The notes beneath the pieces were generated by a model. It worked only from the letters and a program-made list of their open reading frames with translations, searched no databases and had not been told where the DNA came from. A DNA stretch of 48,049 nt, taken from positions 1 to 48,049 of IMG/VR virus record IMGVR_UViG_3300000117_000046; one strand, written 5' to 3'. Of this stretch, positions 1,604 through 40,537 are shown piece by piece. This DNA comes from a virus. The position numbers and the translations under genes are program-made. Position 1 is the first letter of the stretch. Each line of letters opens with the position of its first letter.

Positions 1604-1930
1604 ATGAAACTCCTCTCGGCCAAACATATAGAGTTTCCTGAATACCACAAGGTCTACAATCTGAGTATGCTCGGCAACAAAACAGATTATCACAACCCAA
1701 ACGATAAACAAAAACACAATCTATCAAAGTTATTTGAAAGTTTAGATAAACATGGTATGACACACCCTATCATTATATCTTGGAACGCATACTCTGTATC
1801 TGTAGGTCATCAACGAGTATGGTATGCTAAATCAAAAGGGTACACACACATAGATTGTTACCATGTAGAAAATCAAACACAATGGGAAAAAGTTTTTAAT
1901 TATACAGCGAATGAGGAATATTTAAAATGA
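1604..1930 (+). CDS. ParB/sulfiredoxin-fold domain protein
   Basis: A 108-aa stand-alone ParB-like N-terminal domain. GMTHPIII at about 51-58 matches the GxxxPIxV strand and VSVGHQRVWYAKSKGYTHI the G-H-x-R box of the ParB/Srx fold. There is no DNA-binding helix-turn-helix or CTPase dimer domain, so it is unlikely to be a partition protein. The fold also serves as nuclease, free-serine kinase and sulfiredoxin, so the reaction is open. A diverged copy lies at 2973-3326. The stop overlaps the next gene (ATGA). Confidence 0.65.
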   Translation: MKLLSAKHIEFPEYHKVYNLSMLGNKTDYHNPNDKQKHNLSKLFESLDKHGMTHPIIISWNAYSVSVGHQRVWYAKSKGYTHIDCYHVENQTQWEKVFNYTANEEYLK

Positions 1931-2412
1931 TTGAAGTCAATAATTTTTTACCACAAGATGAGTTTGATAAATTAAAAACATTAATTACAAAGGAAGAATT
2001 TCCTTGGTATCATATTCAATCTATGGTAGCAGATAAGAAAGATAACTTAGGTTACTTTACTCATTCTTTCTATAATAATAATTCTATTAACAGTAATTAT
2101 TATTCTGACTACATAGTACCAATACTGAACAAACTTAATGCAAAGGCAGTTGTTGAAGTACGCTCTAATTTATTTCCATCTGTGTTCTTTAATAAATCAG
2201 AATGGCATGTTGATAGAACTTTTAATTGCAAGACGGCAATATTATATTTAAATACTTGTGATGGTGGTACAGAATTTAAAATGAACATACATAAATTTAT
2301 TCAAGCGGAAGAAAACAAAATGGTAATCTTTAATTCTAGTTTAGAACATAGAGCATGTACATCAACGAATACAGATTATAGATATATCATTAACTTTAAC
2401 TATTATGATTGA
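1927..2412 (+). CDS. 2OG-Fe(II) oxygenase-like protein
   Basis: A 161-aa protein with SEWHVDRT at 91-98 (H94, D96 iron ligands), distal H141 in SSLEHRAC and R152 as the likely 2-oxoglutarate anchor. This is a compact 2OG/Fe(II) dioxygenase core without extra domains. It overlaps the ParB-like gene upstream by four bases and the methyltransferase downstream by eight, so all three are likely coupled in translation. The substrate is unknown. Confidence 0.75.
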   Translation: MIEVNNFLPQDEFDKLKTLITKEEFPWYHIQSMVADKKDNLGYFTHSFYNNNSINSNYYSDYIVPILNKLNAKAVVEVRSNLFPSVFFNKSEWHVDRTFNCKTAILYLNTCDGGTEFKMNIHKFIQAEENKMVIFNSSLEHRACTSTNTDYRYIINFNYYD

Positions 2413-30000: not shown

Positions 30001-30284
30001 TTATCAACATTCCTTCTCCACTTGAAATGATTAAGAAAATCAACGGTGTATTCTTTGATTGGAAAGATAGTTTCATTGAGAGTAAAGGTGGCGAAGACGG
30101 ATACTTTGTAAGAAAAAGAGATGTTGGTGTTATCGCACAAGATGTTGAAAAAGTTATGCCAGAAATCGTTGGTACAAGACCAGACGGTATCAAAGCAGTT
30201 AAATATGACAGACTAGTATCAGTATTGATTGAAGCTGTTAAAGAATTAACAGACGAAGTTACAGAATTAAAGAAAAAACAATAA
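27078..30284 (+). CDS. Long tail fibre with C-terminal S74 chaperone
   Basis: A 1068-aa fibre. The start (PTALQLRRGSTSQNNSFTGA, then GEVSVDTDKDTLRVHDG) is the common trimeric-fibre attachment motif of phage fibres. Five VFEGATADSFETT modules follow. Two tandem copies of a roughly 130-residue unit (VFEGATNDSFETT ... NLIDGGTARGTTAIADGDG ... TTGALNSGSITSGFG) lie at about 578-710 and 730-860. Residues 966-1068 are Peptidase_S74 with S967/K972 as the self-cleavage dyad. The ribosome site is AGGAG. Likely a receptor-binding long fibre; two tandem late promoters suggest high output. Confidence 0.8.
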   Translation: MPTALQLRRGSTSQNNSFTGAVGEVSVDTDKDTLRVHDGSTAGGFEVITATATQTLTNKTLTSPNISGASFTGASFTFEGATDDSFETTLTVVDPTADRTVTIPNATTTLVGTDVSQTLTNKTLTTPVIAEIDSGGSITLDATADIILDADGANVTIKDGGTTTLDFVSNGATDITLDAPGDVKIDADGGDIIFMDGGAVYGSATNNSGNLIIKSGTTTAATFSGANVTLAGTVASGAITSSGSFTGTQAILSNASPLVFEGATADSFETTIAVTDPTADRTLTLPDATDTLVGRATTDTLTNKTLTTPVIAEIDSAGNFTVDAATDIILDADGGDVFLKDAGTTYGSLTNTGGNLIIKSGTTTAMTMSGANVTIAGNLTVSGSTTTVDSSTVNLQTGFVFEGSTADSFETTLVATDPTADRTVTIPDLTGTVSLITATETLTNKTLTTPVIAEIDSGSTITLDATTDIILDADGDNITLKAGGTTALDFVLNGTTDITLDAPGDIKIDADGGDIFFLDAGTTYGSATNNSGNLIIKSGTTTAATFSGANVTLAGTVASGAITSSSTVTATGAVLSGSVVFEGATNDSFETTLGVVDPTADRAVNIANVAGTLQPFAAASTDAITATPAELNLIDGGTARGTTAIADGDGVLINDGGTMRMTTVETLAAYMDDEITAMPNLVTTGALNSGSITSGFGTINNGSSTITTTGQITGGIIQSTNNMLIGAGYSLVFEGSTNDSFETTLGVVDPTADRTVNIANVAGTLQPFASASTDQITATPAEINLIDGGTARGTTAVADGDGILINDAGTMRMTTVQTVSAYMSAESVGGSNIVTTGALNSGSITSGFGNIDNGSSTLDTGALTATTIAGTTITASTGVETKNGATGAGFVKFFEDSDNGTNAVTLVGPASTGDITITLPTQAGTVVVSNTTDGNDVQLDSLGLNTAASGTAGELRATNDITAFYSSDIALKENIINIPSPLEMIKKINGVFFDWKDSFIESKGGEDGYFVRKRDVGVIAQDVEKVMPEIVGTRPDGIKAVKYDRLVSVLIEAVKELTDEVTELKKKQ

Positions 30285-30296
30285 GGAGAATATAAT

Positions 30297-31190
30297 ATGG
30301 CAACGCCAAGTGGACAGATAGGTTTATCAGAAGTAAACGAAGAATTAGGTGTTTCACCTACATCTACTGCTATTAATATGGGTTCAACACCTGTAAGAGC
30401 ATTAGCAGGTATACCTTCAGGTGCAATCGCAATGTCTGATTTGCAAAGTAAAACTAACGAATATACATTTACATGGTTAGTTGTTGCAGGTGGCGGCGGC
30501 GGCGGAGAGAACCAAGGTTCAGGTGCCGGTGCAGGTGGTTTCATTTCAGGTTCAATTGAAAACGCACCAGGTATTTCTTATTCTGCTTCAATTGGTGGCG
30601 GTGGTTCACCAAACACAGGTTTTACAAGTAGAGGTAACTCAGGTAGTAACTCATCATTTCACACAACAACATCAACTGGTGGCGGATATGGTGCTGCTGA
30701 AAACCCAGGTATTGGAGGTCCAGGAGGTTCTGGTGGCGGTGGTCGTCAAGGACAATCTGCCGGTTCAGGTATTGGTGGTCAAGGTAATCCAGGTTCAGTA
30801 GGTCAAGGTGGTGGCGGCGGCGGTGCCGGCGGCGGTGCAGGTCAAAGTGGTTTGGGTGTAAATGGTGGTAACGGTTCAACATTCCCTGGTGATGGTATCA
30901 CTTATGCAGGAGGCGGCGGTGGTTGGCGTCCTGGTTCAGGTTCAGGTGGTAATGGTGGCGGCGGAAATGGCGGTGCTCCGGGAGGACAAGCTGCTCAATC
31001 AGGTCAAACAAATAGAGGCGGCGGAGGCGGCGGGTTAGGTCATTGGGACCAAAACGCAGGTTCTGGTGGTTCAGGTAGAGTTGTTATTGCATATCCAGGT
31101 ACTACACAAAAAGGTTCAGGTGGAACACAATCAATTGTTTCATCTAATAGAGTTCATAGTTTTAATAGTCCAGGAACATACACAAGTTAA
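30297..31190 (+). CDS. Glycine-rich tail-fibre adhesin-like protein
   Basis: A 297-aa protein with AAGGAG upstream. Residues 1-50 (GQIGLSEVNEELGVSP..., SGAIAMSDLQSK) are a marine-phage structural N-terminus. From about 60 to 270 it is packed with polyglycine runs, resembling the polyglycine-helix sandwich of T4-like gp38 adhesins. It ends with GRVVIAYPG and a short beta tail. The GGC/GGT runs make a clear local GC rise. It directly follows the S74 fibre, the position expected of a fibre-tip receptor binder. Confidence 0.65.
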   Translation: MATPSGQIGLSEVNEELGVSPTSTAINMGSTPVRALAGIPSGAIAMSDLQSKTNEYTFTWLVVAGGGGGGENQGSGAGAGGFISGSIENAPGISYSASIGGGGSPNTGFTSRGNSGSNSSFHTTTSTGGGYGAAENPGIGGPGGSGGGGRQGQSAGSGIGGQGNPGSVGQGGGGGGAGGGAGQSGLGVNGGNGSTFPGDGITYAGGGGGWRPGSGSGGNGGGGNGGAPGGQAAQSGQTNRGGGGGGLGHWDQNAGSGGSGRVVIAYPGTTQKGSGGTQSIVSSNRVHSFNSPGTYTS

Positions 31191-31202
31191 GGAGAATATT
31201 TA

Positions 31203-31784
31203 ATGGCACATTTCGCTGAGTTAGACAAAGACAATAAAGTTTTAAGAGTATGTACAGTAGATGACAGCAATGTATCTGCTGATATGGCAGTTGATGGAGA
31301 AACTTGGTGTGCTAATAATATTCCAGAAGATCCTACTATTACATATGTAGATGGTGCTTATCCAGGTATTGCATGGAAACAAACATCTTTTAATCACAAT
31401 TTTAGAAAAAGATTTGCAGGTCCTGGTTGTTATTTTGTAGATGATAGTGGTACAGGATACTTTACAACACCAAAACCTTATGCAAATTGGGTATTAAATA
31501 CAACTGACGGTGCATATTATCCACCAGTTGCATTACCTACTATAAAAGATTATTCTGAGGGTGACCAAAAGTTTGAATATCGTATTACATGGGACCAAGA
31601 CAATACAAGATATATTGCTGTTAAAGTTGTAGGTACTGAAAATCCATACTGGAGAATAAACACTACTAATCTTAATGCACAAAGAACTAATTACGAAGAC
31701 ACAACATACGAAAGTGTAACTGATCCATCATCTGATTTAACACAGATAAGAGTTTGGGACGCAGACGCTAATAGTTGGTCTTAA
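31203..31784 (+). CDS. Marine-phage tail-associated protein
   Basis: A 193-aa protein with AAGGAG upstream. MAHFAELDKDNKVLRVCTVD and FRKRFAGPGCYFVDD followed by PKPYANWVLN form a two-part signature seen in many marine T4-like phage proteins encoded near fibres. The C-terminal half is beta-rich and Trp/Tyr-containing. Function unknown; probably a fibre or baseplate accessory. The stop overlaps by three bases the stop of the convergent gene on the other strand. Confidence 0.6.
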   Translation: MAHFAELDKDNKVLRVCTVDDSNVSADMAVDGETWCANNIPEDPTITYVDGAYPGIAWKQTSFNHNFRKRFAGPGCYFVDDSGTGYFTTPKPYANWVLNTTDGAYYPPVALPTIKDYSEGDQKFEYRITWDQDNTRYIAVKVVGTENPYWRINTTNLNAQRTNYEDTTYESVTDPSSDLTQIRVWDADANSWS

Positions 31785-32203
31785 TTATTAAAAGTTACAT
31801 CATATCCTGTAACTTTATCATTTCTAATAGAATATCTCATTAAAGACGGAAAACTAATAAGTGTTCCCTCAACTACATCTATAATTTTTTCTTTACCATT
31901 TAATGTAAGTGTAAGTTTGTTATCATGCCAAAAATATAAAAATGTATAATGTGAATGACGTATTTCTGATTTACCTAATTTATAATCATCTGTCCAGTAT
32001 TTGACATAATCAGTCCATTTACTTTCAAAATAATTCATTACATTTTTTGTGTACTTATCATGTGTAAGTACAAAAATTTCCCACCACGGTTTGTCTTCTT
32101 TCATTAACTTTAAAAAGTCATCTTTTTGTAAATAATGTTCTTCTACTTTTTGAACATAGATTGGAAATTCAAAGTGTATTATATCTCTACCTGCTATTTT
32201 CAT
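31781..32203 (-). CDS. Degenerate 2OG-oxygenase-fold protein
   Basis: A 140-aa protein with AAGGAAA before its ATG. EIRHSHYTFLYFW at 80-92 looks like the proximal His strand of the TIGR02466-type oxygenases encoded next to it. In the matching distal strand (GTLISFPSLMRYSIRNDKVT) the iron-binding His is replaced by Arg123. It is therefore likely a non-catalytic relative or has changed chemistry. It is the last gene of a minus-strand run and overlaps the previous one by 17 bases. The homology is my reading of short motifs. Confidence 0.5.
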   Translation of the reverse strand: MKIAGRDIIHFEFPIYVQKVEEHYLQKDDFLKLMKEDKPWWEIFVLTHDKYTKNVMNYFESKWTDYVKYWTDDYKLGKSEIRHSHYTFLYFWHDNKLTLTLNGKEKIIDVVEGTLISFPSLMRYSIRNDKVTGYDVTFNN

Positions 32204-32828
32204 TTTTTCCTTTTATATACGGTCTTGCTGAATTAGGTAATCCTAATATAGGTCTGCCGTCAAACTCGTTGTCTTTTGATTGTGGGTCATTAGCGTCATT
32301 ATAATGTAAGAATACTTGACCACAACTTTCGCCATAAAACTTTTCTCTCCAATGTTCTAATTCTGTTCCTCTATACATCAAACAATCGCCTGGTTCTAAA
32401 TCTATTCTGATACCAGGATTGTTTTGACCACCTGTATTATCAACATAGATTGGCCAAGCGTCACCACCTAAATTCATAGTAGCAGAAACAGCACATGATG
32501 GTCTATCTTTGTGTCTATGTAATTCGTTACCATAAACATATAATCTTGTATATGTGTATGTTTCAATAAGTTTCATATCTATTTCTTTTTCTAATTTTGA
32601 TTTTGTTTCTACAAGTAAAGTGGTCATTAGTACATCATCATAGTTTGCCCAAGCATCCACTTGTTGGTCTGTTAATGCACCCCAATGGTCATTAAATGGT
32701 GATACTAATTTGTTTTCATGTAGAAATTTAAATACACGCCTCTTATTTAAAAGATAACGATAACATAAATTTGCCATGTCTGGACTAATTAAATTTTTAA
32801 TTACTTGATAGTGGTCTGTTTTAAACAT
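32187..32828 (-). CDS. 2OG-Fe(II) oxygenase-like protein
   Basis: A 213-aa protein. YVYGNELHRHKDRPSC at 97-112 gives the HxD motif (H106, D108). Distal His H159 is in GTELEHWRE. The core strand LEPGDCLMYRG at 145-154 is the usual double-stranded beta-helix turn. The C-terminal 35 residues are a basic tail outside the fold. It overlaps the upstream gene by eight bases. Substrate unknown. Confidence 0.7.
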   Translation of the reverse strand: MFKTDHYQVIKNLISPDMANLCYRYLLNKRRVFKFLHENKLVSPFNDHWGALTDQQVDAWANYDDVLMTTLLVETKSKLEKEIDMKLIETYTYTRLYVYGNELHRHKDRPSCAVSATMNLGGDAWPIYVDNTGGQNNPGIRIDLEPGDCLMYRGTELEHWREKFYGESCGQVFLHYNDANDPQSKDNEFDGRPILGLPNSARPYIKGKNENSR

Positions 32829-33390
32829 AAGATATCCAACCTGTTATAATATATTTTTCTTGTGATGGTGATGGTATACCCCTATGAGTATGCATCCAAC
32901 CTCCTGGCCAAATGAGAGTTAATCCTTTTCTTGGTTCTACAAATCTTCTTTGATAGAAAAACTCCGTTTCGCCTTCATCTTTAACATCATTTAAATAAGT
33001 CATAAAGACTAAGTGTCTTTTACTAGTATAGTCAGCACCAGTTCTTTCATCTGGTACAAAATTTTGTTCATAGTGCCATTGTTTAAAACCACCACCTGGT
33101 GGGTAATATTGTATATTAAAGTCTTCTCTAATATCAAATTCAGGACAAGCACGATTTGCCCATACATATGTTTCACAATAACGCCTTGCTAAACTTCTTA
33201 TTTCATTAATGTAATCTTTAATAAGTTTATTTGTATAAATGTTAACATGAACATCTTTACTATCTTTTTGACTTTTATCTACAGATTTATAACCTACTTT
33301 ACCTGAAATTTTTTCTGAGTTACGGTGATGTTCTATTAATGCGTCACACATACTATCATCTATTTTATATTCGCCTATAAAGTTTGTCAT
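32821..33390 (-). CDS. Prolyl-4-hydroxylase-like 2OG-Fe(II) oxygenase
   Basis: A 189-aa protein of the P4H type. YYPPGGGFKQWHYEQN at 95-110 carries the iron motif as H106-Y-E108 (HxE rather than HxD). VFMTYLNDVKDEGETEF at 128-144 is the P4H core strand. H167 (or H169) in GGWMHTHRG is the distal ligand and K179 the likely 2-oxoglutarate anchor. P4H relatives hydroxylate proline in proteins; here the target is unknown. The Glu in place of Asp deserves checking. Overlaps both neighbours. Confidence 0.75.
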   Translation of the reverse strand: MTNFIGEYKIDDSMCDALIEHHRNSEKISGKVGYKSVDKSQKDSKDVHVNIYTNKLIKDYINEIRSLARRYCETYVWANRACPEFDIREDFNIQYYPPGGGFKQWHYEQNFVPDERTGADYTSKRHLVFMTYLNDVKDEGETEFFYQRRFVEPRKGLTLIWPGGWMHTHRGIPSPSQEKYIITGWISYV

Positions 33391-33944
33391 ACTATTTTAT
33401 ACTCATCTAAATCTGTTATTACAAAATTACCTGATACACTATATCTTTCTACATCTGTTTTCATAACCTTGTGAGGTAAACTTGACTTAAATATTAGTAG
33501 TGTTCCTCTTTGAACAGGCATATCAAAACTTTTCATATTGTATATATTATATTTATTATAGATAGGTTTATATAATTCTTCTTGTCCAAATGATTGAAAC
33601 TGACAACTTGTACCTTTGTCTATGTAAAGAACAAAACTATATGTACTATTCATATGATAATGTACTTCGCCTTGTTGACCTGGCATAAATTTTGTACTCC
33701 ACATTCTTGTCATTTTGATAGGTGTTTGATAGTGCATAAGATTATCATTAAAATCTTTTACATGGCGTTCTATATCTCTAGTTACATCTGGTAATCTATC
33801 CCATATCATATCATCAACAGATTGAAAACCATCTGGTTCAATACTTTTATATTCTAAGTCTTTAATAATTTGTATATCACTTTCATGTAAATGTATCTTT
33901 GTATATGCAAGTGGTTTAGAAAAGAGTGGTTGTATCTCAAGCAC
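33387..33944 (-). CDS. 2OG-Fe(II) oxygenase-like protein (HxH type)
   Basis: A 185-aa protein. QGEVHYHMNSTYSFVLYID at 91-109 has an HxH at H95/H97, distal His H158 in FKSSLPHKV and R167. The His-x-His followed by the SxVxY strand is the arrangement of a large group of phage TIGR02466-like proteins. Overlaps its neighbours by four and eight bases. The substrate is unknown. Confidence 0.7.
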   Translation of the reverse strand: MLEIQPLFSKPLAYTKIHLHESDIQIIKDLEYKSIEPDGFQSVDDMIWDRLPDVTRDIERHVKDFNDNLMHYQTPIKMTRMWSTKFMPGQQGEVHYHMNSTYSFVLYIDKGTSCQFQSFGQEELYKPIYNKYNIYNMKSFDMPVQRGTLLIFKSSLPHKVMKTDVERYSVSGNFVITDLDEYKIV

Positions 33945-34473
33945 GACTAATCTCCTCTAGTTTACTGCCGTCTATATCTTTAAATTCTAAGTTGAATGAT
34001 ACTATTGTTTTTGTTTTATCATTTTGTACAGGTGGTGCTCTGTGTATCATAAAAGACGGAAACATAACTATATCTCCTTCTTCACAGTTTAAATTCATCA
34101 CTTCATTATTCCATACTTGCGTTTTTGCAGTACCGTCAAACTGTACATAGTAAACACCTGTGTAACTACGACCATGTATATGCCAACCGTGTGTAGAGTT
34201 TTTAGCATACTGTTGAAACCATATCTCAAATAATTCAAAGTCTTTATAACCTGCTAAGTTTGTCATTTTCAACATTTCTGGCATGAAATAAGGTAGTAAT
34301 TTTTTTACCCACGGTCTTTCATAATCACCAGAATTTGCCCAATCTGACCTTGTAATATCATCATTATAATAATCATTAGATTGTTTAATAGATTGTGCTT
34401 CTGCTGTATCTATAAGTTCTAATATATTGTTTCTAATTTGTTTATGTTCTTTTATTTTGCCGTAAAATATCAT
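33937..34473 (-). CDS. 2OG-Fe(II) oxygenase-like protein (TIGR02466 type)
   Basis: A 178-aa protein. STHGWHIHGRSYTGVYYVQF at 93-112 contains the family strand with H98/H100. FPSFMIHRAPP at 138-148 gives distal H144, and K155 in the last strand KTIVSFNLEF may bind 2-oxoglutarate. This is the clearest TIGR02466-like member in the minus-strand run. Overlaps its neighbours by eight and four bases. Confidence 0.75.
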   Translation of the reverse strand: MIFYGKIKEHKQIRNNILELIDTAEAQSIKQSNDYYNDDITRSDWANSGDYERPWVKKLLPYFMPEMLKMTNLAGYKDFELFEIWFQQYAKNSTHGWHIHGRSYTGVYYVQFDGTAKTQVWNNEVMNLNCEEGDIVMFPSFMIHRAPPVQNDKTKTIVSFNLEFKDIDGSKLEEISRA

Positions 34474-35060
34474 CTATAAGGTTGTCCTAAACTCCATATT
34501 ACTAAACTTTGACGAATGCCTGATGTAACAGGTGTAACTCTATGTTTTACAAAAGACGGAAAGATACAAATAGACCCTTTTGGTTTTATCTGATCCACAG
34601 TAAACTCGCCATGTGGTGTAACAAACTGTAAATCACCACCCTCATATTCATTTGGGTGACATAACTGTACTGAACAAGATAGTTTTCTTATATTACCTTG
34701 TTCATTAGGTTTTGCACCTTGGTCTTCATGCCAATGATAATACTGATTTAGTTTGTACTTTGTAAACTGACATGCTTCTGACCAATGCCAATCAAAATTC
34801 CAACCAGCATTTTTATTTGCTTGTTGTATCCAAGGGTGTATCTCGTTATATATCCACTCATCATCTATCCAAGTGATATAACTGTCTCTATGTGATAAAT
34901 TTTTCTGAGCTGCTTGAGGGTTATTCTTTATGTCTTCCTCAGTCAAGTTTCCTGTCACACCTAGTCGTTCCTGGTGCTGTTGAGCAGTTTTTATTATATC
35001 ATCACATACAATTTCTGGTATAACACCTGAGAAATAGTAATAATAATTTTCCAGTATCAT
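34470..35060 (-). CDS. PKHD-type 2OG-Fe(II) hydroxylase
   Basis: A 196-aa protein and the first gene of the minus-strand run. YYHWHEDQG at 107-115 gives HxD (H111, D113). FPSFVKHRVTPVTSGIRQSL at 167-186 gives distal H173 and the 2-oxoglutarate anchor R183, the classical PiuC/PKHD-type hydroxylase ending. It is the most canonical oxygenase in the window. Its start lies 32 bases from the divergent gp13 start, so promoters for both sit in that short gap. No clear Shine-Dalgarno sequence precedes it. Confidence 0.8.
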   Translation of the reverse strand: MILENYYYYFSGVIPEIVCDDIIKTAQQHQERLGVTGNLTEEDIKNNPQAAQKNLSHRDSYITWIDDEWIYNEIHPWIQQANKNAGWNFDWHWSEACQFTKYKLNQYYHWHEDQGAKPNEQGNIRKLSCSVQLCHPNEYEGGDLQFVTPHGEFTVDQIKPKGSICIFPSFVKHRVTPVTSGIRQSLVIWSLGQPYR

Positions 35061-35076
35061 ATAGGTATATATAATG

Positions 35077-35084
35077 CATAAATA
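35077..35084 (+). promoter_or_regulatory. Late promoter for the neck gene block
   Basis: CATAAATA (one base from consensus) ends nine bases before the gp13 ATG. The predicted start near 35090 leaves only three bases of leader and no Shine-Dalgarno sequence. It lies in the divergent gap between the oxygenase run and gp13. Confidence 0.65.
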
Positions 35085-35092
35085 GTAGTATT

Positions 35093-35920
35093 ATGGCACA
35101 AAATAACCCAATAACAAGTAGAGAAACACTTAAACAATACTGCCTAAGAGCATTAGGTAAACCTGTTATTGAAATCAATGTAGAAGACGACCAAGTAGAA
35201 GATAGAATAGACGAAGCAGTACAATACTTTGCTCAGTATCATTATGACGGTTCTGAAAGAATGTATTTAAAATATCAAGTTACAGCTGACGATATTACTA
35301 GAGCAAGAAGTAACGAAACATTATCTACAGTCACAGATACAGCAGATTCCACAGTAACATCAAGTTTTAAAGAAGGTAAAAATTATATACCTATGCCTTC
35401 AAATGTAATGTCAGTATTACAAGTATTTCCTTTTACAGACAAGGCGGCATTAAATTTATTTGATGTCAGATATCAATTAAGATTAAATGACTTGTATGAT
35501 TTTTCATCTACAAGCATTATACACTACGATATGACATTAAGACATTTAGATATGTTAGACCATATTTTAACAGGTGAAAGACCAATTAGATACAATCAAC
35601 ACAAAAACAGATTGTATATAGATATGGATTGGGCACATGATGTCAAAGCAGGTGATTACTTAATCATTGAATGCTATCGTAAGTTAGATGGTTCTACATT
35701 TACAGATTTATTTGATGACATATTCTTAAAAAAATATTTAATTCAATTAATCAAAAAACAATGGGGTACAAACTTATCTAAATTCCAGGGAGTTGCAATG
35801 CTGGGTGGTGTTCAAATGAATGGTGAACAAATTTACTCTCAAGCACAAGAAGAAATCAACAAACTAGAAGAACAAATACAGTTAAGTTTTGAGTTACCAC
35901 CAAACTATATGGTAGGTTAA
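35093..35920 (+). CDS. 13: Neck protein gp13
   Basis: A 275-aa homologue of T4 gp13 (309 aa), which with gp14 closes the filled head and joins it to the tail. SRETLKQYCLRALGKPVIEI followed by VEDDQVEDRIDEAVQYF is the recognisable N-terminus; the C-terminal half contains KKYLIQLIKKQWGTNLSKFQ and LGGVQMNGEQI, also family features. First gene of the 13-14-15 block, nearly leaderless on its late transcript. Confidence 0.9.
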   Translation: MAQNNPITSRETLKQYCLRALGKPVIEINVEDDQVEDRIDEAVQYFAQYHYDGSERMYLKYQVTADDITRARSNETLSTVTDTADSTVTSSFKEGKNYIPMPSNVMSVLQVFPFTDKAALNLFDVRYQLRLNDLYDFSSTSIIHYDMTLRHLDMLDHILTGERPIRYNQHKNRLYIDMDWAHDVKAGDYLIIECYRKLDGSTFTDLFDDIFLKKYLIQLIKKQWGTNLSKFQGVAMLGGVQMNGEQIYSQAQEEINKLEEQIQLSFELPPNYMVG

Positions 35921-35923
35921 TAA

Positions 35924-36796
35924 GTGAAAAATACATATTTCTCACATGGTACACACTCAGAAAAAACTCTTTATGAAGATTTAATCATAGAGCAGTTAAA
36001 AATATTTGGGCACGAAGTACATTATCTTCCTAGAACAACTGTAACGGAAGATAAAATATTAGGTGAAACACCTGATAGTAAGTACACAGAAGCGTATCAA
36101 ATAGAAATGTATATAGAAGATGTAAACGGTTTTGCCGGTCAAGGTGATTTAATTGGTAAGTTTGGTTTAGATATGAAAGACGAAATAACTTTCGTTGTTA
36201 GCAGGCGTTCATTTGAGTTATTAGTTGACCAACCATCAAATACAATTTCAATAAACAGACCTAGAGAAGGTGACATTATCTACATGCCAACCTTCAAAAA
36301 GTTTTTCCAGGTAGACTTCGTTGAAGACGAAGATCCAATGTATCAGATTAATGATTTACCTATTTTCAAACTTAAAACATCTGTTTGGGATTACAGTATG
36401 GAACTTGTTGATACAGGTATTACTGAGATTGATGAAAAATTAGAAGACGAGAATTTAGATTTATTACAAAATCAAATAACACTAGAGATTGGTACAACAT
36501 CATCAGGTAAATTACTTGCTGAAGTAACTGACGGTAATATTGAGACATTGTTAGCAGAGACAGGCGACTTAATTGTTGACGAAGTTGATGGCGACAATAT
36601 CATACTGGAAGATGACCCTAATTTTGTTGACTATATAGTGTTAGAAGATAGCAACACAACAAACATGGCGGCTGATAGACCAGGCGCCGACAATATATCT
36701 TTTGATGATGAAGCAGGATTAAATGACAACGATACAAACAATGATATCTTTGACTTCACAGAAAAGAATCCATTTGGTGACCCAAGTGACTTATAA
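35924..36796 (+). CDS. 14: Neck protein gp14
   Basis: A 290-aa homologue of T4 gp14 (256 aa), partner of gp13 at the neck. The start is GTG three bases after the gp13 stop. The conserved part includes EKTLYEDLIIEQLKIFGHEV followed by HYLPRTTV, then FGLDMKDEITFVVSRRSFEL. The C-terminal 70 residues are an acidic extension (DEVDGDNIILEDDPNFVDY) whose DNIILE pattern recurs in the gp7-like and DUF4815 proteins of this phage. Confidence 0.9.
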   Translation: MKNTYFSHGTHSEKTLYEDLIIEQLKIFGHEVHYLPRTTVTEDKILGETPDSKYTEAYQIEMYIEDVNGFAGQGDLIGKFGLDMKDEITFVVSRRSFELLVDQPSNTISINRPREGDIIYMPTFKKFFQVDFVEDEDPMYQINDLPIFKLKTSVWDYSMELVDTGITEIDEKLEDENLDLLQNQITLEIGTTSSGKLLAEVTDGNIETLLAETGDLIVDEVDGDNIILEDDPNFVDYIVLEDSNTTNMAADRPGADNISFDDEAGLNDNDTNNDIFDFTEKNPFGDPSDL

Positions 36797-38191: not shown

Positions 38192-38591
38192 AGATAAATT
38201 AAACGAGTTATTAGATATAACTGAAACTAAGCAAGAGATTGTTCAAACAACAACTGCTGTACCTAGACCTAATGAAAAAGAAGATATCACTAGTGATTAT
38301 AAGTATAGTAGAGAAAACTTATATAATCTAGTAGAACGAGGACAAGACGCAATAGATGGTATATTAACACTTGCAAAAGAAACAGACCATCCAAGAACAT
38401 ATGAAGTTGCAGGTCAATTAATTAAGAATGTGGGAGAGGTAACTGAAAAGTTACTACAATTACAAGAGAAGATGAAGAAGTTAGGGGAAGAAACAAAAAA
38501 AGGACCTAGCAAAGTTGAAAATAATCTCTTTGTTGGGAGTACAGCAGAATTGCAGAAACTAATAAAAGATAATAAGAATGATAAAAATTAA
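38178..38591 (+). CDS. 16: Terminase small subunit gp16
   Basis: A 137-aa protein if started at the ATG at 38178; a TTG nine bases earlier (38169) is in frame and would add three residues. Homologous to T4 gp16 (164 aa): ENLYNLVERGQDAIDGILTL and PRTYEVAGQLIKNV align with the central coiled coil, and NNLFVGSTAELQKLI with the C-terminal VFMGSPTELMDEI. It regulates packaging by gp17. Its end overlaps the next oxygenase by 14 bases. Confidence 0.85.
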   Translation: MKKVEDKLNELLDITETKQEIVQTTTAVPRPNEKEDITSDYKYSRENLYNLVERGQDAIDGILTLAKETDHPRTYEVAGQLIKNVGEVTEKLLQLQEKMKKLGEETKKGPSKVENNLFVGSTAELQKLIKDNKNDKN

Positions 38592-39159
38592 TGAAGAACG
38601 ATTATGGGAAACTCCACTCTTTAATACTAACATTGGTGTTGACAAAGAAATATTAGATTATCTTATAAACAATAAAGATAAGATACAAGACACTAATGAA
38701 GACCCTAACGGTGCATGGGTTAGTAAAACAGACTTAGATTTTCCTCCTTTAAAAGAAACAATCAAAAGTTTTTGTCGTAGTCTATTTGCCTTAAATGTAA
38801 CTGAAATTACTTTTACAAATATGTGGGCAAACATGTTAAAAAAAGGTGAGTATCATTTATTACATAGTCACAATGAGCATACAATGTCAGGTGCATATTA
38901 CTTACAAACACCTGTAAACTCAGGACAAATATATTTCAAAGACCCAAGACCACAAACTAATTCGTGGACACAAAAATTTATAGATAAAGGTAACATGAGA
39001 TTTTATACACCTAAACCAGGTGACTTATTCATGTGGCCGAGTTTCTTAGAACATGGTACTACACCACATGGTGCAGATGAAGAAAGAATAATGTTAAGTT
39101 TTGATTTAAGATTTAACGGACCAGGATACAAATATGGACACAATGGATACAACGGCTAA
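38578..39159 (+). CDS. 2OG-Fe(II) oxygenase-like protein (TIGR02466 type)
   Basis: A 193-aa protein. YHLLHSHNEHTMSGAYYLQ at 92-110 holds H96/H98 in the family His strand. WPSFLEHGTTPH at 153-164 gives distal H159, and R170 lies in ERIMLSFDLRF. Inserted between gp16 and the halogenase, overlapping both (14 and 26 bases). The substrate is unknown; a link with the adjacent halogenase is possible from gene order only. Confidence 0.8.
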   Translation: MIKINEERLWETPLFNTNIGVDKEILDYLINNKDKIQDTNEDPNGAWVSKTDLDFPPLKETIKSFCRSLFALNVTEITFTNMWANMLKKGEYHLLHSHNEHTMSGAYYLQTPVNSGQIYFKDPRPQTNSWTQKFIDKGNMRFYTPKPGDLFMWPSFLEHGTTPHGADEERIMLSFDLRFNGPGYKYGHNGYNG

Positions 39160-40537
39160 AAAAATATTAGTAATGGGTGGTGGTACTGCTGGTTGGTTAA
39201 CGGCACTATATCTAACTAAAACTTTTCCTCAACATCATATTACATTAATGGAAAGTAAACCTATTGGTATCTTAGGTGCAGGTGAAGGTTCAACACCACA
39301 TCTAGTAGCGTTTCTGAATATGTTAGGTGTAGATTTAAACGAATTACTTAAAGAATGTAAAGGTACAATTAAACAAGGTATCTCATTTGAAAACTGGAAT
39401 GGTGACGGTGAGAAATACTTTCATCCTTTTGCAGTACAAAATAAATATAAACATTTTAGTATAGACAATTTATTTGGTTATGATAGTTATGATTATTATT
39501 TAAAACATTTAATTCACAGAAAAATGCCTTTGAAAGAGAATACTTATGCGTCTATACAATCATATAAGAATGTTGTTGATACAGATAATATAGATAACTC
39601 TATACACTTTGACGCACACCTTTTAGCAGATTATCTTAAAAAAATTACAAAAGTTGATAAACATATCTATGATGAAATTAAAACTACACAACAAGACGAA
39701 CATGGTAATATAACTAAAATAAATAATGTAGAATGTGATTTAGTTTTTGATTGCACAGGTTTTCGTAGAGAGTTAATTGGTAAGTTATATAAGTCAGAAT
39801 GGAAAAGTTATCAGGATTGTTTACCAATTAAGAGAGCAATACCTTTCTTTTTACCACCTGAAGATAAACCTTACACACAAGCAATCGCAATGAAATATGG
39901 TTGGGTATGGAAGATACCTTTACAACATAGATGTGGTGCAGGTTATATATTTGATAGTGATTATATAACAGACGAAGAAGCATTTGCTGAAGCAAAAGAA
40001 ATGTTTCCTGATATAGAATATACAAGAACAATAAAGTTTGACGCAGGTAGATTTAAACAAACATGGATAAAAAATTGTATTGCAGTAGGTTTATCTTCTG
40101 GTTTTACAGAACCACTTGAAGCAACATCTATTTGGATGGCAACTGAACAATTAAAATTACTTGAAACATTTATTGACATTATGTTTACAAATGATGAAGA
40201 TACTAAACAAGATTATAACGAAGTTATTGCAAATAATAATGATATGGTTATGGAGTTTTTACACTATCACTATATGACTAAAAGAGACGATAGTCCTTTT
40301 TGGAAAGAGTTTAGAAATAAAAACAATTTACCTGACTTTAATGTTAAGTTATCTAAAATACAAAAAGGTAATTTAAGATGGTATCATACAACAGGTGAAA
40401 AGATTACATCAACATTTAATCTTATGTCATGGTTGCATGTAGGCGAAGGTCTAGGTCTTATCAAAGATATAAGTATTAAAGGGTATGAAAATTTAAACCC
40501 AACAGTAGAAGAATATGGCAGACACTTACCTAGGTAA
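39134..40537 (+). CDS. Flavin-dependent (tryptophan-type) halogenase
   Basis: A 467-aa member of the tryptophan halogenase family. The FAD motif GGGTAG is at 15-20, GEGSTP at 50-55, and ECKGTIKQGISFENW places K80 at the catalytic Lys of RebH/PrnA (K79). WVWKIP at 257-262 is the WxWxIP halogenase signature, and TEPLEATSI at 325-333 the conserved cofactor/halide segment. It is shorter than RebH (about 530 aa), mainly in the substrate region. A cyanophage relative (VirX1) has been shown to halogenate, preferring iodide. No flavin reductase gene is seen here. It lies between gp16 and gp17 and overlaps gp17 by 23 bases. Confidence 0.9.
   Translation: MDTMDTTAKKILVMGGGTAGWLTALYLTKTFPQHHITLMESKPIGILGAGEGSTPHLVAFLNMLGVDLNELLKECKGTIKQGISFENWNGDGEKYFHPFAVQNKYKHFSIDNLFGYDSYDYYLKHLIHRKMPLKENTYASIQSYKNVVDTDNIDNSIHFDAHLLADYLKKITKVDKHIYDEIKTTQQDEHGNITKINNVECDLVFDCTGFRRELIGKLYKSEWKSYQDCLPIKRAIPFFLPPEDKPYTQAIAMKYGWVWKIPLQHRCGAGYIFDSDYITDEEAFAEAKEMFPDIEYTRTIKFDAGRFKQTWIKNCIAVGLSSGFTEPLEATSIWMATEQLKLLETFIDIMFTNDEDTKQDYNEVIANNNDMVMEFLHYHYMTKRDDSPFWKEFRNKNNLPDFNVKLSKIQKGNLRWYHTTGEKITSTFNLMSWLHVGEGLGLIKDISIKGYENLNPTVEEYGRHLPR

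Follow-up and report, generated by a model that had tools for sequence, protein, structure and literature searches.

The stretch examined here, IMG/VR virus record IMGVR_UViG_3300000117_000046 (48,049 nt, referred to as the window), matches Pelagibacter phage HTVC008M at 99.8% identity. Between its tail fibre genes and the gene for neck protein gp13, in a region where every late gene nearby reads from the plus strand, lies an island of six minus-strand genes, called ox1 to ox6 here (Table 1), whose products may modify the glycine-rich fibre tip encoded nearby. Island DNA is likewise 99.8% identical to HTVC008M, and because the window so nearly equals that phage the six genes are already annotated, as I899_gp067-072: a hypothetical protein, a ferrochelatase, and four 2-oxoglutarate (2OG)-Fe(II) oxygenases. 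This annotation draws no link to the tip. The original prediction described six minus-strand genes between fibres and gp13, each overlapping the next by 4-17 bases, and the open reading frame (ORF) coordinates agree, with successive overlaps of 4, 8, 4, 8, and 17 nt. The ox1 stop overlaps that of the plus-strand ORF f193 by 4 nt, and 32 nt separate the ox6 start from the gp13 start. Gene order and coupling are kept in more than 12 IMG/VR contigs at protein identities of about 40-100%, and the ratio of nonsynonymous to synonymous substitution rates (dN/dS) among IMG/VR homologues is well below 1 for the island genes, so the operon is not a chance arrangement.

Products of the island genes

Oxygenase motifs had been proposed for five of the six proteins, and all five were found: HxD...H in ox6 and ox2, HxE...H in ox3, and HxH...H in ox4 and ox5. 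Among the six, only ox3-ox6 have Pfam matches above cut-off. Ox6 (PF13640, 3.1e-13; PDB match 3dkq, 9e-9) is nearest to PKHD-type enzymes (PiuC/YbiX) and prolyl 4-hydroxylases (P4Hs), and its H111, D113, H173, and R183 (HxD...H...R) are invariant across 19 homologues. Ox3 (PF13640, 9.8e-10) has P4Hs as its nearest PDB entries (3itq/5hv0, 7e-4), with H106, E108, H169, and K179 (HxE...H...K) invariant across nine homologues. Ox4 and ox5 match PF13759 (5.6e-10 and 2.1e-10, respectively); their HxH...H, invariant in 23 sequences, is a three-histidine site rather than HxD.

Ox2 has no match in Pfam or NCBIfam. Its AlphaFold2 model has a mean predicted local distance difference test score (pLDDT) of 90.6, and the top PDB entries in a Foldseek search with it are PHD (6t8m, 1.8e-9) and the P4H that acts on EF-Tu (4iw3, 5.8e-9; also 4j25), at a template modeling (TM) score of ~0.57; the other matches listed are further 2OG oxygenases or uncharacterised proteins related to them. 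The closest folds, bacterial EF-Tu P4H and collagen P4H (TM-score 0.5-0.6), are cellular enzymes, while the phage substrate of ox2 is putative. H106, D108, and H159 are invariant across 44 aligned homologues. Judged from the model, ox2 is a protein of the 2OG-oxygenase fold nearest to prolyl hydroxylases, and the name "ferrochelatase" is wrong. Identity as a ferrochelatase or haem enzyme is ruled out by the fold, by the invariant residues, and by the lack of a Pfam ferrochelatase match in any of the 44 homologues.

The double-stranded beta-helix of 2OG-Fe(II) oxygenases is thus assigned to ox2 by model and to ox3-ox6 by Pfam, and the HxD/E...H metal triad is present in ox2, ox3, and ox6. Ox2-ox6 are predicted non-haem iron oxygenases, with ox2, ox3, and ox6 nearest to prolyl hydroxylase or PKHD-type enzymes. 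Ox1 lacks the triad: its first histidine varies (it is not conserved in contig L100; L numbers denote the sequences compared), and Tyr124 stands in place of the distal one. Aligned to the ox4/ox5 profile with hhalign, it scores 80.4% probability over 125 columns; its structure model (pLDDT 37) is unusable. It occurs in HTVC008M and the nearest relatives only, and the comparison with L100 (dN 0.18, dS 0.58) indicates purifying selection. Ox1 is probably an inactive, degenerate paralogue of ox4/ox5.

Table 1. Island genes, neighbours, and candidate promoter elements (window positions unless another sequence is given)
Feature	Position	Strand	Description
ox6	34470-35060	-	196 aa; first gene of operon; predicted PF13640 oxygenase
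ox5	33937-34473	-	178 aa; PF13759-type putative oxygenase
ox4	33387-33944	-	185 aa, GTG start; PF13759-type putative oxygenase
ox3	32821-33390	-	189 aa; predicted PF13640 oxygenase
ox2	32187-32828	-	213 aa; phrog_2954, labelled "ferrochelatase"
ox1	31781-32203	-	140 aa; shortened ox4/ox5 relative
f193	31203-31784	+	small protein beside tip, long form, convergent with ox1; phrog_7759, 1.7e-36
Glycine-rich fibre-tip protein	30297-31190	+	proposed substrate; PF21722 (Gly_rich_2), 6.7e-18, above cut-off; phrog_2295
gp13 neck protein	35093-35920	+	right cassette border; phrog_211, 9.4e-44
Divergent promoter core (candidate), 28 nt	35058-35085	both	minus TATATATA at 35066-35073, 5 nt before ox6 ATG; plus CATAAATA at 35077-35084, before gp13
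[T/C]ATA[A/T]ATA 5 nt before start, HTVC008M	L003:6280, 7562, 18916(-); L001:6533, 25161, 35082(-); L004:20361		

Linkage to the tip gene and f193

Presence and absence of the operon follow those of f193 and the glycine-rich tip gene. Oxygenase clusters adjoin a PF21722 fibre-tip gene, and usually f193 as well: the trio tip-f193-ox6...ox2 is found in HTVC023P-type podophages, S-SM1, and S-RSM4, and again, with the oxygenases inverted, in a podophage group (L109, L129, L139). PF21722 tips also lie beside the clusters of S-RSM4, S-SM1, S-RIM44, Mosig, and HTVC023P, and clusters without f193 (Mosig, S-RIM44, L022, L151/L152) are likewise near a glycine-rich protein. Scans seeded with f193, which pick loci by neither tip nor oxygenase, separate its long (at least 138 aa) and short forms. 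Where 3.5 kb of downstream sequence was available, every long-f193 locus had oxygenases (44/44, or 38/38 deduplicated), ox6 always and ox2 in 41. Of 80 loci from the short-f193 scan, 69 had a glycine-rich tip no more than 4.5 kb away, but only one had an oxygenase. Counted as with and without an oxygenase nearby, long f193 stands at 67/2 and short f193 at 4/52 (p 9e-28; p-values here assume independent loci, although the loci share phylogeny). As a control, 24 of 29 gp13-centred loci have neither f193 nor oxygenase. Relatives of the same clade without the island have no glycine-rich tip upstream of gp13 in the available sequence; when the window tip was used as seed, the scan gave near relatives only.

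The suggestion that the island is a swappable cassette is borne out at the fibre-gp13 junction, where it is present and inverted in some relatives and absent or replaced in others. Among phages with gp13 84-100% identical, the ordered operon is inverted in L009-L012, L028, L092-L100, and L159-L169; a fibre gene directly abuts gp13 in L015, L017, L019, L020, L023, L024, and L027 (gp13 84-91% identical). In Mosig, S-RSM4, and S-RIM44 this junction is occupied by oxygenase clusters that share the strand of gp13, and the S-SM1 cluster is behind the tail fibres. Some cassettes (L010, L011, L096, L097) are missing ox5, and in L009 ox4 is only 23% identical while the rest of the cassette is near-identical, pointing to exchange of single members. 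No recombinase or endonuclease gene of a transposon or homing element was found in the interval, all six ORFs being oxygenase-family proteins. In L092 (1827-2276) ox6 is cut to 149 aa, possibly by a frameshift or sequencing error; L073 and L076 have other, unlabelled minus-strand genes (95-297 aa) upstream near gp13; and in Mosig, a SAR11 phage, the oxygenase cluster is separated from gp13 by genes for a haem oxygenase and a ferredoxin-dependent bilin reductase (L005:10711-11947). Halogenases are found inside tip-oxygenase modules in L186, L191, L207, L232, and S-RIM44, and elsewhere in the window (38578-40537), between the terminase subunits, there is an overlapping pair of genes for an oxygenase and a flavin-dependent (tryptophan-type) halogenase.

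Tips near oxygenases are also richer in proline. Within glycine-rich stretches it makes up 6.6% of residues in linked tips (98 tips, 63 loci) vs. 2.4% in unlinked ones (71 tips, 45 loci; p 2e-25), at 34-35% glycine in both. Locus GC content is 0.39 for linked and 0.46 for unlinked tips, opposite to what a codon-bias explanation of the proline would require, and the difference persists within the GC bins 0.36-0.40 and 0.40-0.44. Isolates give 6.3% for Mosig, 5.9% for S-RSM4, 6.3% for S-SM1, 6-7% for HTVC033P, and 8-11% for the f193-side tips of HTVC023P; Melnitz, with no oxygenases, has 0.7%. Most prolines in HTVC008M-clade tips are in x-Pro-Gly (eight of nine in the glycine-rich stretch of the window tip), which is the site recognised by collagen P4H (PMC9189910). 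Both the linkage and the proline content are new here, neither having been part of the original prediction; a literature search for an oxygenase-fibre link found none.

Promoter and strand

The 28-nt core of the ox6-gp13 spacer is identical in eight of nine distinct island-bearing spacers, with one substitution in L028. Its minus-strand half, TATATATA-N5-ATG, is a late-type motif, the sole conserved promoter-like element of the island, with the same geometry as at other late genes here; relatives without the island have TATAAATA and an AAGGA ribosome site before gp13. Exact TATAAATA occurs 21 times in HTVC008M; 10 copies have an ORF start no more than 45 nt downstream (0.6 expected), and the stricter [T/C]ATA[A/T]ATA-N5-start occurs seven times, every one at a real ORF start, that of ox6 included. 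Scans for sigma-70 promoters and terminators over 30200-36000 gave no more matches than shuffled sequence. With a late motif 5 nt before the ATG and the geometry known from T4, the ATG itself would be the transcription start, which suggests that these late mRNAs are leaderless. The spacer sequence points to late, possibly leaderless, transcription of the island. A pelagiphage transcriptome study (PMC12753301) covers HTVC022P and HTVC027P.

Of 115 distinct cases, 96 have the module on the strand of the fibre genes and 19 have it inverted, so its strand looks incidental. The idea that the opposite strand reflects timing different from that of virion genes, or a deliberate antisense arrangement, gains no support from these observations, since the only promoter-like motif found in the spacer is of the late type.

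A possible role in tip maturation

The enzymes resemble hydroxylases, are inherited with the tip, and are associated with proline-rich tips, and a tip-modifying role best explains this combination. The fold and sequence neighbours of ox2, ox3, and ox6, which are protein hydroxylases, support it. On balance, and by a narrow measure, it seems probable that the island is a tip-maturation operon travelling with a particular receptor-binding tip, its prolyl-hydroxylase-like enzymes modifying that tip. No PDB entry matches the HTVC008M tip in sequence; by analogy with gp38 of Salmonella phage S16 and gp24 of cyanophage Pam3, tips in which a glycine-rich loop domain is proposed to contact the receptor (PMC9608196) and no oxygenase partner is described, the PF21722 protein may be a receptor-contacting fibre tip. 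We infer the chemistry, substrate, and timing of the modification as follows. A leaderless promoter of its own would drive the operon late in infection, and the enzymes would hydroxylate proline, and possibly lysine too, in the glycine-rich loops of the tip before virion assembly, altering tip stability or binding specificity. Ox1 could be a non-catalytic partner, and f193 might assist the folding of the tip or cap it. The inverted orientation in the HTVC008M clade would be incidental, needing only a new promoter.

A number of observations weigh against this reading, besides the shared phylogeny of the loci compared. The habitats and lineages represented by linked tips differ in part from those of unlinked ones. 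S-RIM44, with both oxygenases and halogenases, has proline-poor tips (1.2-2.5%), HTVC023P has one 1.9% tip adjoining an oxygenase, and the HTVC008M tip itself, at 3.8-4.6%, ranks low. Pro-Gly exceeds what composition predicts in the HTVC008M clade only; across the full set of linked tips it does not. Linked tips are also enriched in lysine (2.2x) and cysteine (5x) and depleted in tyrosine, and the tip classes may therefore differ for other reasons. Ox4 and ox5 have HxH where HxD might be looked for, and another ~15 oxygenase-like ORFs of HTVC008M are not near the tip.

Other explanations can be offered for the same genes. The oxygenases might serve host metabolism or some other target and sit beside the tip only because phages swap the host-recognition region as a unit. 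The VrlC-gp14 interval is a known hypervariable host-recognition cluster, with the island at its gp13 end; the available part of that account (PMC7029224) discusses fibres and glycosyltransferases rather than tip-linked oxygenases. The oxygenase genes elsewhere in HTVC008M and the single-member swap in L009 agree with such hitch-hiking. Proximity alone, however, does not predict higher tip proline. Neither does it predict that podophages, pelagimyophages, and cyanophages would all show this pairing, and in both orientations; we regard hitch-hiking as unlikely. Somewhat less likely still is that the substrate is f193 or a halogenase product rather than the tip, or that the proteins are non-catalytic assembly factors. 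Long f193 is the tightest partner of the oxygenases, ox1 has no active site, and four loci have a halogenase within the module; on the other hand some clusters lack f193, the proline shift is in the tip, and the catalytic residues of ox2, ox3, and ox6 are invariant.

Earlier readings of such genes invoke DNA repair (PMC11288001), 2OG and nitrogen (PMC3037559), or haem-linked metabolism (PMC9599517). An auxiliary metabolic role, with the enzymes consuming 2OG or rewiring nitrogen, iron, or haem metabolism, has been proposed for cyanophages through 2OG/NtcA and for pelagiphages with the "ferrochelatase" as haem partner, and the Mosig haem genes do adjoin its cluster. The HTVC023P-type pairs read in the pelagiphage study as haem or iron metabolism are the same ox6 and ox2 families side by side; here ox2 is itself a predicted oxygenase, with the tip gene as a neighbour. 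As the "ferrochelatase" has an oxygenase fold the haem argument falls, and with the tip linkage and proline content left unexplained this role appears quite improbable. Modification of host lipopolysaccharide or O-antigen sugars, blocking superinfection, would suit the glycosyltransferases in the same variable region of pelagimyophages (PMC7029224) and the weak resemblance of ox5 to an oxygenase from a carbohydrate cluster (E 0.015), but the cassette has no sugar genes and tip composition tracks the oxygenases, leaving it a shade more improbable again. Nucleic-acid modification or repair (AlkB/TET-like), a common annotation of phage 2OG oxygenases and echoed by very weak ox2 profile matches to TET-like dioxygenases (E 0.056), is the most doubtful, given that ox2 folds nearest prolyl hydroxylases, ox3 and ox6 match P4H/PKHD enzymes, and the genes sit with tip genes.

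Few unexplained genes are as common in marine cyanophages and pelagiphages as those for 2OG oxygenases, and tying one set to a receptor-binding tip gives that set a specific, checkable substrate. If tip maturation is the correct reading, enzymatic oxidation joins the ways in which phages alter host recognition. More tentatively, and with somewhat less than even confidence, many marine tailed phages might use dedicated hydroxylases, sometimes with a halogenase, to mature their own glycine-rich tips in a collagen-like manner, tuning host recognition; this would explain the abundance of 2OG oxygenase genes.

HTVC008M has ~21 oxygenase-like ORFs overall, one of them inactive-looking; one (146752-147282) is at the record end, outside the annotated gene list. 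Besides "ferrochelatase," a second misleading name is probably endonuclease V for phrog_274 (window 1927-2412; L002:3477-3959; L045:3187-3687). Named for the cyanophage DNA endonuclease V (denV), this family has no match to pyrimidine-dimer glycosylase and looks like a 2OG oxygenase: both histidine ligands are conserved, and the HTVC008M counterpart of the window member matches PF13640 (1.3e-7).

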